A stretch of 5,042 nt of DNA from Sedimentisphaerales bacterium (lineage in GTDB: Bacteria > Planctomycetota > Phycisphaerae > Sedimentisphaerales > SG8-4): the NCBI GenBank assembly GCA_016932895.1, contig JAFGCA010000069.1:1-5042 (forward strand). Reading direction: 5' to 3'. The notes beneath the pieces were generated by a model. The model was given only the letters and a program-made list of their open reading frames with translations. It did no database searches and was not told where the DNA came from. Below are positions 1,933-5,042 of this stretch, piece by piece (the stretch's first letter is position 1; each line of letters begins with the position of its first letter). The position numbers and the translations under genes are program-made.

Positions 1933-2730
1933 ATGATCGTATCAGCAAACCCGGACCGAACGAATTCACGCCGGCCGCAGATGTGCGTGGTGTTGCTCTG
2001 TGCGCTGGTCGTGCTTCCCCTGGGCATCGCCTCGGCCCAGGACTACGAGGCCGTGGGCAGGCGGCTCAGGGCGGCGGTCGCCGCCGGCGAGCTCACCGGC
2101 GAGCAGGCCAGGACCATGCTCGGCGCGCTGCGAAAAGCCGGCGCCGCCGGAAAGGACCAGGGCGCCGACCGGGCAAAGGCCTACCTGGTGAAGGTCAAGA
2201 AGGAACTCGCCGCCGCGGTCGAGGCCGGCGAAATCAGCCGGGAAGACGCCGCCAAGCGGTACGAAGCCGCCGAGAAAGGGATCAGAGAAAGAATGGCCGC
2301 CGGACGTGCACAGCGAGGCGAGAGGCGTATCAGCCGCGAGGACCTCGCCAAGGCCGCCGGCGAAATCCGCAAGGCGATCGCCGAGGGCAAAATCACAAAA
2401 GAACAAGGCCGGGCCAAACTCGGTGCAATGCGCAAAATGATCGGCGAAAAAAGTGAGAGTACCGCCGGAAGAGAGGTGGATTGGGAGCGTATCAAGAAGC
2501 GAATCGACGGCGCCGTCAAAAGCGGCCAAATGACCCGCGAACAAGCCGATGCGAAGTACCGGGAGATCCGGAAGCGAATGGCCCGAGAAAACCAGGGCGA
2601 GGACAAGCGGGGCAAGTACGAAAGCGTTGAGCGGCGGATCAAAGCGGCGCTCGAAGCGGGCAAGATAACGCCCGAGCAAGCCCGCAAAAAGCTCCAGGCC
2701 TACAGGAAGCGTATGGGCCGCGAAAGGTAA
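1933..2730 (+). CDS. Exported protein with five SHOCT-like helical repeats
   Basis: This is a 265-residue protein of unknown function. Residues 1-35 form a signal peptide: a basic n-region with RR at 13-14, a hydrophobic core (VVLLCALVVLPLGIA) and an AxA site (A33-S34-A35) before Q36. The mature part has five copies of a helix-turn-helix unit centred on GELTGEQA (52), GEISREDA (99), GKITKEQG (152), GQMTREQA (198) and GKITPEQA (243). The spacing is 45-53 residues. Each copy has an amphipathic helix before the glycine and a Lys/Arg-rich helix after it. The core resembles the SHOCT short helical motif (G-x-I-T-x-E-E), but that is pattern resemblance only. The mature protein has no cysteine, no aromatic-rich patch and no catalytic motif, and is rich in Lys, Arg, Glu and Ala. 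It has its own Shine-Dalgarno and a downstream hairpin, so it is probably monocistronic. Periplasmic binding or scaffolding is possible but unsupported. Confidence 0.85.
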   Translation: MIVSANPDRTNSRRPQMCVVLLCALVVLPLGIASAQDYEAVGRRLRAAVAAGELTGEQARTMLGALRKAGAAGKDQGADRAKAYLVKVKKELAAAVEAGEISREDAAKRYEAAEKGIRERMAAGRAQRGERRISREDLAKAAGEIRKAIAEGKITKEQGRAKLGAMRKMIGEKSESTAGREVDWERIKKRIDGAVKSGQMTREQADAKYREIRKRMARENQGEDKRGKYESVERRIKAALEAGKITPEQARKKLQAYRKRMGRER

Positions 2731-2746
2731 GTAGTCAAACGCAAAC

Positions 2747-2780
2747 CAGGGACCCGGTTGCACGCGCGACCGGGTCCTTG
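2747..2780 (+). terminator. Hairpin terminator after the helical-repeat gene
   Basis: The arms at 2747-2758 and 2769-2780 pair over 12 bp with one G-U (CAGGGACCCGGT with ACCGGGTCCTTG). Three further pairs (one a wobble) close it to an ACGC tetraloop. It begins 16 bases after the TAA. The following bases (AACATTCCTT) are not a real T-run, so termination may be imperfect or Rho-assisted; the arms also make it a potential 3'-end stabiliser. Confidence 0.7.
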
Positions 2781-2929
2781 AACATTCCTTGAGACACCGA
2801 ATCGTCTCGGGCGGACGCTCTGTGGACGCAGGCCGAACGCGCCCCTGCCATCGCGCCACCAAGCCCCGGGATACCCAAGACGCGCGGCCGGTCCGGCAAG
2901 CACGAAACCGGAAATCCGCCTTTTTTCTC

Positions 2930-2958
2930 TTGACGACCAACAGAACCGATGATATAGT
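2930..2958 (+). promoter_or_regulatory. Strong sigma70-type promoter with no clear downstream gene
   Basis: TTGACG (2930-2935) and TATAGT (2953-2958) each match the sigma70 consensus at 5 of 6 positions and are exactly 17 bases apart. The region around the -10 is locally AT-rich (GATGATATAGTCGATA) in otherwise GC-rich DNA, and a T6 run (2921-2926) lies just upstream. Transcription would start near 2965 and run into the repeat array. No convincing protein follows; the nearest candidate is a GTG at 3008 with a GGAAG just before it. The product may be a non-coding RNA. Function is inferred from the boxes alone. Confidence 0.6.
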
Positions 2959-3148
2959 CGATACAGAACGAATTAGGAAGGATTAGATTGGAAGCTGGCA
3001 GCCGGAAGTGAAGCACCCCAACGCACAAATCCCGCCCGGCGGTCCGGACTCGCAGCCATGTCCAACTCACGGACAACCCGGTTCCACGACCCACGATCCC
3101 GCGGTCTCGTTCCTCCGACCCTGTTGTTTGGATCGCGATGCCATGACG

Positions 3149-3276
3149 GCGCCAAACAAACCCAATTCCGCGCCCTCCAGGCCGGCAAGTCCCAACCCAA
3201 CCGCGCCAAACAAACCCAATTCCGCCTCCGCCGGGGCGGCAAGTCCCAATCCGGTCGCGCCAAACAGACCCAATTC
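3149..3276 (+). repeat. Tandem array of a 54-bp unit with a 20-bp conserved core
   Basis: The core GCGCCAAACAAACCCAATTC starts at 3149, 3203 and 3257. The first two copies are identical and the third differs by one base (G at 3267). The spacing is exactly 54 bases both times. By hand alignment, units 1 and 2 match at 45 of 54 positions; the linker shares GGCAAGTCCCAA at a fixed place (3184-3195 and 3238-3249). Unit 3 keeps only the core. The period is a multiple of three, so each frame gives a repeating peptide: AKQTQFR, PNKPNS or QTNPIP. I recall similar KQTQF / KTNPI strings in planctomycete hypothetical proteins, which suggests a dispersed DNA or RNA repeat that is often mis-called as coding. 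It is not a CRISPR: the linkers are similar rather than unique and there are only three copies. Confidence 0.85.
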
Positions 3277-3344
3277 GAAAGGGCACACTTCAAGGATAAA
3301 GCATTGTATTAGAATGATTTAGGCAAAAAGAAAAATTCCATGCC

Positions 3345-3364
3345 GGCGCAAAAACAAACCCAGT
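3345..3364 (+). repeat. Diverged outlying copy of the repeat core
   Basis: GGCGCAAAAACAAACCCAGT keeps AAACAAACCCA (3352-3362) from the array core but has lost the CCAA and AATTC edges. It sits 90 bases beyond the third unit, outside the 54-bp rhythm, and about 65 bases from the end of the converging peptidase gene. It could be a decayed fourth unit separated by unrelated sequence. Confidence 0.5.
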
Positions 3365-3429
3365 GGCCGTGCATTCAGATGGCGCGACGCTGCCTTGCAC
3401 TCTTGGACGTCGGCGGTGGCCGGTCGCGG

Positions 3430-4863
3430 CTACTTCATGTCGATCTGCGCCTTGGCGGGGTCTACCGTGATTCCGAGGGATTGGAACCAGGGGAAGAGGT
3501 CCCGGCCCATAGCAATGCTCAGGACGGCGACGCTGTCGTCGGCGGTGTATTTGTCGATTTTGTCGGGCGTGGCGAGCCGGCGCTTGGCCTGGAAATAGCG
3601 GGCCACGATGTCGGGCTTTTCCTTGGCCAACTGCTCGAAAATCCACATGGGCTTGGCCATACGGACCCCGTGGGGCACGTTTTCGCCGTAGGCCAGGTCG
3701 AGTTTCGTCATGTCCGGATCGTGGCGCCGGGCGCCCTTGATCCAGCCGGCCAGGGTCGCATCGGCGTCCTCGGCCAGCCCCAACCTGCGACCGACGAGGA
3801 TGCCGACGTACGTGGCGATCCCCTCGTTCCACATCGGCTCGCCGAAGGGAAGCACCCACGAATGGGTGGACTCGTGCGAGATCAGCTCGACCATCGGGTA
3901 CTTGTGCTCGGGGAAGCCGCCCCACCACGCCGCCAGGCCGATAGCCACACCGGAGGAGAACCCGCCGCCGCCGGTAGGCAGCAGGATCAGCGTGCTCAGC
4001 ATTCCCTCGGTGGGCGGCACACCCATGACCTCTTGGATCACGGGGAAGCACTCATCGTAGACGGCGTAGATGGCGTCGGCGTAGGACGCCAGGTAGTCGG
4101 AGTATTGGATGGGGAGCCGCTCGCGCTGCGTGCGGTTCTCGGGCGACTGGTCTTTCGGGCGGCGTTGCGGATCGACCGGCTTGCCGGCGGCGAGGCGTTG
4201 CAGCAGCGGCTTCCACCAGCGGTCGTTGATCGGATCGCTGGCGTTGGGGTTGCGGCCGCACAGGGACCGCGACGCTACCACGAGGTCCCCCTTCCCGACG
4301 CGCCGCTGCGCCATCACCACCCGTCCGTTAGCGTCCCGGACCAGAACCTGCCAGTCGGACGGCTCGGCCAGCTTGATGATTTTGGGCGAATAGCTGTCGA
4401 TTTTCTCATTCTCGAGCGACGAACGGCCCTGGAGGGGCTTTTTTGCCGGTTCATTGAGGAATTCCGCGCCGAAACGCTTGGCCAGGGCGTTGAGCTTGTA
4501 TTCCTTGTCGTCGCGGAAGAGGGCATAGTCGCCCAGCATGGCGACGCCGCCGCCGGCCTGGAGAAACCGCTGGACCGCTTCGATATCTTCCGGCACGTAG
4601 GGGCACGGCGAGGCGGACGACTGGACGATGAGCAGGTTGGCGTTCGCGAAATCGTATTTGTGCAGCGTGCCCCAGTTGCGGACGTCGATCCCGTTGGGCA
4701 GGACGTAGTTCTTGCCGAATCGCCCGTCGAAGTAGAACGAGAAGTCGTGGGAAATGTCGGTCACGCAATGGATGCGGCCGGGCTCGACCGCGGCAGCGGC
4801 CTGCCCCACCAGAACACTCGCCAAAACAAACACCAGGACCGTCAGACTCATCTTTTGCATCAT
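3430..4863 (-). CDS. Secreted gluzincin-type metallopeptidase with GATase1-like N-terminal domain
   Basis: This is a 477-residue protein read from an ATG at 4863 to a TAG at 3430. Residues 1-25 are a signal peptide (hydrophobic LTVLVFVLASVLVG, then AAAA). Residues ~30-230 resemble a class I glutamine-amidotransferase-like fold as used in non-enzymatic sensor or binding domains: ANLLIVQSSAS, then a helix, then LQAGGGVAMLGDY, and a closing strand RVGKGDLVVASR. No nucleophile-elbow cysteine is visible. Residues ~250-470 hold the peptidase: HESTH at 330-334 supplies two zinc-binding His and the catalytic E331, and MWNEGIATYVG places the likely third ligand at E347. The HExxH plus downstream EG(I/L)A(T/E)Y pattern fits the Peptidase MA-like (gluzincin) group; an M60-like relation is less likely because the HExxGH form is absent. 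The start has tandem ATGs (codons 1, 2, 5) and only a weak AAGAG upstream, so the exact start is uncertain. It follows tRNA-Leu on the same strand by 95 bases. The substrate is unknown. Confidence 0.85.
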   Translation of the reverse strand: MMQKMSLTVLVFVLASVLVGQAAAAVEPGRIHCVTDISHDFSFYFDGRFGKNYVLPNGIDVRNWGTLHKYDFANANLLIVQSSASPCPYVPEDIEAVQRFLQAGGGVAMLGDYALFRDDKEYKLNALAKRFGAEFLNEPAKKPLQGRSSLENEKIDSYSPKIIKLAEPSDWQVLVRDANGRVVMAQRRVGKGDLVVASRSLCGRNPNASDPINDRWWKPLLQRLAAGKPVDPQRRPKDQSPENRTQRERLPIQYSDYLASYADAIYAVYDECFPVIQEVMGVPPTEGMLSTLILLPTGGGGFSSGVAIGLAAWWGGFPEHKYPMVELISHESTHSWVLPFGEPMWNEGIATYVGILVGRRLGLAEDADATLAGWIKGARRHDPDMTKLDLAYGENVPHGVRMAKPMWIFEQLAKEKPDIVARYFQAKRRLATPDKIDKYTADDSVAVLSIAMGRDLFPWFQSLGITVDPAKAQIDMK

Positions 4864-4950: not shown

Positions 4951-4958
4951 ATGAAAAG

Positions 4959-5042
4959 TGCCCGGGACTGGATTCGAACCAGCACGAGCCGAAGCTCACT
5001 AGCCCCTCAAGCTAGCGCGTCTGCCAAATTCCGCCACCCGGG
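4959..5042 (-). tRNA. tRNA-Leu, anticodon GAG (5' base cut by window edge)
   Basis: Read on the minus strand this is a complete class II tRNA apart from its first base. The acceptor arms are (G)CCCGGG and CCCGGGC. The D-arm carries the GG pair. The anticodon stem CTAGC/GCTAG encloses TTGAGGG, with anticodon GAG at 5008-5006, reading CUC and CUU leucine codons. The long variable arm is GAGC-TTCG-GCTC, a UUCG tetraloop typical of Leu/Ser tRNAs. The T-arm has GGTTCGAATCC. The discriminator is A (4959), as expected for leucine. CCA is not encoded (the next bases are CTT), so it must be added enzymatically. The expected first G pairs with C72 and would be at position 5043. Confidence 0.95.

Follow-up and report, generated by a model that had tools for sequence, protein, structure and literature searches.

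The window analysed here, taken as the whole stretch of 5,042 nucleotides, carries a short tandem array between two convergent genes, and it raises the question of whether such an array is coding sequence, a mobile repeat or a non-coding element with a transcript of its own. Core 1 (3149–3168), which was established by a repeat-family search and shuffles, is followed on the same plus strand by linker 1 (3169–3202), core 2 (3203–3222, identical to core 1), linker 2 (3223–3256) and core 3 (3257–3276, with one change, CAGACC). The core-to-core spacing was exactly 54 and 54 bp, as an earlier note on this DNA had stated, and the drift that it had pointed out between the two 34-nt linkers was confirmed by a count by eye, with 25 of 34 positions the same. 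Tandem Repeats Finder (TRF) gave the array a score of 186 with 2.4 copies, and the 20-mer core, searched within 3 mismatches, had three matches in the window and 0 in 200 shuffles. We found an additional, degenerate fourth core (AAACAAACCCAGTG, 3352–3365, plus strand, two mismatches to the 14-mer AAACAAACCCAATT), 90 nt past core 3 (3262 to 3352 in 14-mer coordinates); a mean of 0.0 cores appeared over 60 Markov shuffles of the array-free window sequence, and the distance fits the relatives, in which a spacing of 90–92 nt is common.

The gene upstream of the array (1933–2730, plus strand, 265 aa, weak DUF2680 and SHOCT-like matches) stops 423 nt ahead of the first core in 14-mer coordinates, and the downstream neighbour, gene B (3430–4863, minus strand, 477 aa, weak DUF4350 match), converges on it; both genes are outside the repeat unit. 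The upstream gene has internal repeats at the DNA level too, and a tRNA-Leu (GAG) lies at the window end (4958–5042, minus strand). Rfam at the gathering threshold returned only the tRNA from the window and nothing at the array, and a permissive Rfam scan of 2880–3430 gave a best E of 0.7.

We asked how far the core extends beyond this locus. The exact 19-mer core occurred in nine stretches of the reference genome collection, four of them in two Planctomycetota MAGs, FK_Sedi_B_Bin.55 (hereafter G001) and Prado173 (G002), and the remaining five in other phyla with a single exact match each. With up to 2 mismatches, a 16-mer had 354 copies in G001 and 52 in G002 (reversed pattern, 1 and 0). Among 294 genomes sampled evenly from the phylum, 170 had a match, usually in numbers similar to the control, and only G001 (354) and G144 (40) stood clear of the reversed pattern; the runners-up had 19 (controls 7 and 8), 13 (8), 12 (1), 11 (5) and 8 (0) matches. 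G001 and G144 both belong to one order, which was surveyed further. The exact relaxed core VAAACRAASCCAATT was present in 104 of the 161 genomes of that order, at least 10 times in 69, at least 50 times in 30 and at least 100 times in 13, with a maximum of 477 (threshold totals recounted by hand); because the reversed controls gave 0–2, a genome with one or two matches is hardly informative. Labels of proteins predicted from the repeat, which name a Planctomycetes, Phycisphaerae or Sedimentisphaerales bacterium, make Sedimentisphaerales the probable identity of the order.

These counts support the suggestion of the earlier note that the repeat is a dispersed, mostly intergenic family of planctomycetes. 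The word 'widespread' holds across this one order and fails beyond it, where the phylum sample was near control. The proposed check of strand bias found copies on both strands genome-wide and nearly always on a single strand per cluster. The window repeat is one locus of a large, apparently undescribed non-coding repeat-array family: no description was found in a full-text search of the open-access journal literature for repeats or RNAs of Planctomycetes, Phycisphaerae and Sedimentisphaerales, mostly among the top-ranked entries, and a search of the same scope on concerted evolution of bacterial interspersed repeats gave no account of this family. In viral contigs, the bare 15-mer occurred in at least 120 stretches, with a single exact match each among the matches listed and no array. 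Outside the planctomycetes, a Bryobacterales MAG (L004, 603–697) contains an exact core-like site and another with 2 mismatches, both on the same strand at a distance of 79 nt.

Could the repeats encode a small repetitive protein? Two open reading frames of the window, 3008–3322 and 3058–3312, run through the array, and the earlier note had mentioned KQTQF and KTNPI peptides in many planctomycete hypothetical proteins. Such entries do exist for the unit of one relative, G310: its translation (MNVS..NKPNSNPI..KQTQF) matched 55 predicted proteins at E≤1 and 52 at E≤1e-3, and the seven matches named by organism were each a 'hypothetical protein' of Planctomycetes/Planctomycetota, Phycisphaerae or Sedimentisphaerales bacteria. 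For the window's own 84-aa ORF, the protein search gave no candidate and Pfam no match. Sense frames through the arrays are also open more often than in Markov shuffles (22 of 22 vs 7.9 in G310, 18 of 20 vs 10.9 in G300, 10 of 19 vs 2.3 in G001), the more so where copies are homogenised, and more often than antisense frames (2, 7 and 6, respectively), and an ATG frame without stops was present in 20 of 20 G310 units. Because the copies are homogenised, however, the openness of the G310 frame represents few independent events. The core distances in G001 ignore the reading frame (54, 43 and 57 with remainders of 0, 1 and 2 on division by three), no bias among codon positions was seen (0.196, 0.219 and 0.218), and the three-frame comparison of synonymous and non-synonymous changes that had been proposed gave a synonymous excess as large or larger in the other two frames. 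We found no selection at the protein level, in agreement with the earlier impression that no frame looks like a real protein. A protein-coding reading is thus disfavoured by frame spacing, codon position and synonymous excess, and we consider it very improbable; the database proteins are best explained as translations of the repeat.

The arrays of the relatives vary widely in their layout. They have 1–16 cores per cluster, and throughout 60 loci and the window the cores of a cluster lie on one strand. Exceptions were met outside that set: G296, G297 and G298 each have two oppositely oriented cores 218–299 nt apart. These opposed pairs (G296:C6:139990–140222, G297:C158:117357–117635 and G298:C45:3241–3554) are apparently the same locus. 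Core spacing depends on the genome and was 51–53 and about 90 nt in G300; 32, 90 and 21 nt in G309–G313; 101–102 nt at most G305 loci; and 91–92 nt, among many others, in G001, where distances range from 19 nt up without a constant period. Orthologous loci vary in unit number. Column frequencies over 161 copies (G001 and G002) gave the core AAACRAASCCAATT; positions immediately upstream have slight preferences, and further out there is hardly any. This core is non-palindromic; short arms such as AATTG..CAATT seem to flank some of its copies. REP/BIME repeats, the GTAG and CGTC repeats among them, are described in parts of PMC3733652 as dispersed and extragenic, Planctomycetes included; the arrays share this dispersed extragenic placement but differ in that their core is not palindromic.

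By eye, linkers are shared among G001 loci. In G310, a unit of ~230 nt occurred at all 22 fetched clusters, with a mean identity of 0.883 over 170 nt; most copies end sharply after CCAATTT, and their 5′ side is genome-specific as judged by eye. A second conserved block of ~150–200 nt, with two TTYGTGCAACA words, lies ahead of most arrays in the G001 loci L160–L175. It resembled blocks of G305 and G310 by eye, and we do not claim homology, because an 11-copy profile of the G001 block had 15 hits, all in G001 loci, with no hits in other loci at E≤0.01. Four G305 loci (L180, L183, L186 and L189) have a last core whose end lies no more than ~10 nt from the end of the antisense neighbour gene. Rfam at the gathering threshold, run on eight loci of relatives, returned tRNA and TPP only, with none at the arrays.

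A candidate promoter was found upstream of the arrays in some genomes of the order. The G300 genome is one 6.5-Mb contig, and in it a sigma-70-type site was predicted on the array strand ahead of 22 of 33 assessable clusters, with 2.0 expected by shuffling, and on the opposite strand in 6 clusters, again with 2.0 expected; the count leaves out 7 of the 40 clusters, which have assembly gaps upstream. The sites lie 100–330 nt upstream of the clusters on the same strand, clusters often being found 140–350 nt past a promoter, and their consensus, ATTTnnCTTGACG-N17-TATnAT, has a 17-nt spacer that is weakly conserved, as expected of a promoter rather than of a transposase site. In the whole G300 genome, exact ATTTNNCTTGACR had 27 sites and the reversed control 0. 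Cores followed 158–353 nt downstream on the same strand at 17 of the 27; among the other 10, four ran into N gaps, one had a weak core only and five were coreless, and none of the 27 had antisense cores downstream. At L362, L364, L381 and L384 of this genome, motif sites hit 100-N scaffold gaps where an array is expected, and arrays may break assemblies.

Beyond G300, a fuller promoter pattern searched in 12 other genomes had 33 sites in 10 of them. Eleven of the 30 sites that were fetched had cores downstream and one had antisense cores; the sites leading to cores were 4 of 4 in G377, 3 of 5 in G326, 2 of 4 in G328, 1 of 1 in G299 and 1 of 2 in G301, and none of the 14 fetched sites of G334, G341, G370, G371 and G397 had a core downstream. 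A generic promoter scan gave no excess in G001 with the window (2 of 22, the window being one, vs 1.5 expected), in G310 (10 of 22 vs 9.7) or in G304–G306 (8 of 22 vs 9.6); AT-rich flanks yield many chance sites in the scans of G304–G306 and G310. At orthologous loci of G309–G313, a promoter with up to 2 mismatches was present in 8 of 21 upstream regions. A profile of the promoter and leader of this genus, built from 12 fetched loci, had 22 instances, 21 of them with a core 243–527 nt downstream, a link that is no independent test because most loci were fetched for their arrays. By sequence, a promoter on the array strand is tied to the arrays in G300 and, on smaller counts, in these five other genomes with cores downstream of the motif (G377, G326, G328, G299 and G301).

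In the window, a putative sigma-70-type promoter (TTGACG-N17-TATAGT, 2930–2958, plus strand) has TG before its -10 element and a T-rich stretch (TTTTTTCTC) ahead of it. It was the one site found by the promoter scan of 2700–3500, vs 0.2 in shuffles, it lies 219 nt ahead of core 1 on the array strand, and it is similar in sequence to the array promoter of G300. The putative transcribed leader would then span 2959–3148 (plus strand), between the promoter and core 1; no structure was predicted for it when folding was compared with shuffles (z 0.6 for the first 100 nt and 1.05 for 190 nt). The unit enters the 3′ end of the convergent gene, and a transcript there would therefore be independent of that gene. 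An element in another genome (L396 of G366, ~190–800) has a TTGAAA-17-TATAAT promoter ~300 nt ahead of its first core, and it adjoins a truncated orthologue of gene B, of which residues 367–476 match (82%).

A leader followed by repeats calls to mind known arrays. CRISPR arrays combine a leader that contains a promoter with direct repeats that all lie on the same strand, and the arrays described here likewise have a promoter-bearing leader and short same-strand direct repeats. A CRISPR-like array, an integron attC array or a type III toxin-antitoxin array is nevertheless barely worth entertaining as an explanation: the spacing is irregular, linkers recur between loci, tens of loci per genome adjoin many different neighbour genes, and no CRISPR or other array RNA family was among the Rfam matches.

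To determine how the arrays are placed with respect to genes, we masked the arrays before gene calling, since unmasked ORF calls are distorted by antisense ORFs and repeats. The downstream gene was on the array strand at 19 of 21 clusters in G001 (two-sided binomial p 0.0002), 16 of 21 in G310 (p 0.03) and 33 of 40 in G300 (p 0.00004); no fewer than three of these 40 G300 clusters consist of one core each, seemingly within a gene (L200, L340 and one in L346), and without them the count is 31 of 37. The bias was absent in G304–G306 (9 of 21), and G299 and G301 had 2 of 4, with few clusters. A wide variety of genes lie downstream, many with housekeeping roles (such as clpX, tex, ilvC, ilvD, nadC, dnaK and rplM, named by eye from their translations). 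This sense orientation ahead of diverse housekeeping genes is what one would see if the array formed the 5′ leader of the mRNA of the downstream gene, acting in cis and transcribed from the same promoter. We regard that explanation as unlikely in view of several findings. Of the 25 G300 segments that separate an array from a sense gene, 14 have a predicted gene promoter of their own, vs 16 of 77 array-free genes; in G001 the count was 8 of 19, vs 0.5 by shuffling. The seven G300 clusters with an antisense downstream gene include four with an array promoter (two are without it and one is masked). In addition, the window unit faces a convergent gene and has no sense gene to lead into, and orientation is unbiased in G304–G306.

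Arrays lie upstream of ilvD in G001, G300 and G310. In the best-scoring 30 ilvD loci of 146 matching genomes, there was no sense core and one single antisense core; 12 of these loci come from genomes in which the exact core occurs 8 or more times (one such locus includes just 344 nt of upstream sequence), and one start could not be placed. A conserved ilvD association as a general rule was rejected on these 30 fetched loci.

The leaders of the genus G309–G313 open with short hairpins, many of which have AGAA, AGCA or AGTA loops on different stems; AGAG, AGAC and AAGTC loops are present as well (L291, L229, L306, L222 and others). Five of these leaders fold at z -1.4 to -6.6, and 12 leader instances had a mean z of -4.1, vs -0.8 upstream. 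Covariation amounted to one base pair with both partners changed in 3 of the 15 sequences; 263 of 500 shuffle controls also had one such pair, and none had as many such cells. The G300 leaders (19 loci, mean z 0.2) folded no better than shuffles. Folding predictions thus favour an RNA structure only for the leader of the G309–G313 genus. A hairpin within the 52-nt G300 module (CGTTTTTGG..CCAAAAACG) was convincing by eye and was rejected: it paired at 75.5%, vs 75.9% in shuffles, with no covariation, although it was better than slid versions, and five folded examples (z -0.9 to 1.1) did not clearly beat shuffles.

The evolution of the elements was followed by comparing G310 loci with their relatives in the genus G309–G313. 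The element was present at 17 of 26 orthologous places, namely nadC 2 of 2, dnaK 3 of 3, rplM 3 of 4, thi4 1 of 2, 239b 1 of 2, 239a 0 of 2, thrC 2 of 2, nadK 0 of 2, pfp 3 of 3, ilvC 2 of 3 and ilvD 0 of 1; outside the 26 are nadC in G313, ilvD in G311 and G312 and 239b in G312, each at a contig edge or with a short upstream region, and 239a in G309, which was not fetched. Within genomes, identity over 170 nt was 0.883 in G310 (210 pairs), 0.777 in G313 (10), 0.776 in G312 (3), 0.728 in G311 (21) and 0.661 in G309 (1 pair). Between species, orthologous copies (0.670, 26 pairs) were no more alike than non-orthologous ones (0.691, 432 pairs; one-sided Mann-Whitney p 0.87), and 12 of the 26 orthologous pairs were above the mean of their genome pair; the starts of flanking genes are ~75–90% identical between species. 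As far as these alignments tell, sites persist while the sequence is homogenised within genomes, most clearly in G310, a pattern that is concerted evolution. We infer that gene conversion would be its simplest cause.

These same data bear on the main rival, and a strong one: a small interspersed repeat that is selfish, akin to BOX, Correia or MITE elements, and mobilised in trans. Such a repeat would carry its promoter incidentally and have no host function, and its arrays would lengthen through slippage and nested insertion. In agreement with it are the high copy number, subfamilies specific to single genomes, the similarity of copies within G310 (0.883) and a turnover of presence and absence that leaves 9 of the 26 orthologous places without the element. 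The G366 element beside the truncated gene B orthologue could likewise be an insertion into a gene, but the junction may be a MAG misjoin at the repeat. Inspection of the alignments by eye revealed no boxA/boxC-like fixed ends, no terminal inverted repeats and no target-site duplications. A search for empty sites found no clean junction, as element-free places do not align across the site. At the G305 locus L188, the flanks in G304 and G306 lead into other sequence. Moreover, many orthologous sites are kept even though the similarity of their copies does not exceed that of paralogous ones, and in G300 the promoter and the array are conserved and the intervening stretch is not, which fits selection on parts. 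On balance, we hold a selfish repeat to be possible without being probable.

Passages of PMC3049150 describe BOX elements of Streptococcus pneumoniae as dispersed modular repeats whose internal units vary in number; genes next to them can be affected, and some loci are transcribed. The arrays resemble them in that they too occupy scattered intergenic sites and contain varying numbers of an internal unit; they differ in the lack of BOX-like ends by eye, in a core of about 14–20 nt, in the order-wide extent of the family and in the conserved promoter upstream of the array in several genomes. In the same source (PMC3049150), Correia and ERIC elements are dispersed repeats of small size with effects on expression, those of the Correia type being able to make promoters, and both are grouped with putative MITEs; unlike these, the arrays have no terminal inverted repeats that could be seen by eye.

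Three features were not anticipated in the earlier note: the upstream promoter in several genomes, the orientation toward the neighbour gene in three genome groups, and concerted evolution. Taken together, the evidence supports a non-coding unit that appears to be promoter-driven at least in part of the order; a working promoter, an RNA product and a reader of the core are what we infer beyond that. The repeat resembles a set of RNA-producing units more than it does a protein gene or a single isolated duplication. The unit would consist of a sigma-70-type promoter, a leader of ~100–350 nt and a same-strand array of 1–16 copies of a 14–20 nt core (AAACRAASCCAATT) within variable linkers. The promoter would give rise to an RNA running through the array. 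We propose the core as the part read by a shared partner, either an RNA-binding protein or a pairing RNA, because it is kept while linkers drift. The target of the array RNA may be the neighbouring gene or its vicinity; alternatively, the RNA may serve as a decoy with multiple sites. Arrays would be resized by local duplication, and recombination in the form of gene conversion would homogenise the copies. That the window carries one locus of such an order-wide family of non-coding repeat-array transcription units is the reading we favour, at about an even chance. We put forward a bolder version as a speculation that is rather improbable: each genome would have dozens of promoter-driven paralogous non-coding RNA genes in the same gene neighbourhoods, homogenised genome-wide, sharing a common 14-nt core in 1–16 copies and one protein or RNA partner, and would use them as a multi-locus scaffold or sponge upstream of housekeeping genes.

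The kept sites and the homogenisation within genomes make concerted evolution of short dispersed bacterial repeats directly testable, and the link with a promoter turns a 'junk repeat' into a hypothesis that RNA-seq can decide. If this reading is right, an order of planctomycetes would have a large non-coding layer, regulatory or selfish, which annotation pipelines misread as tiny hypothetical proteins.
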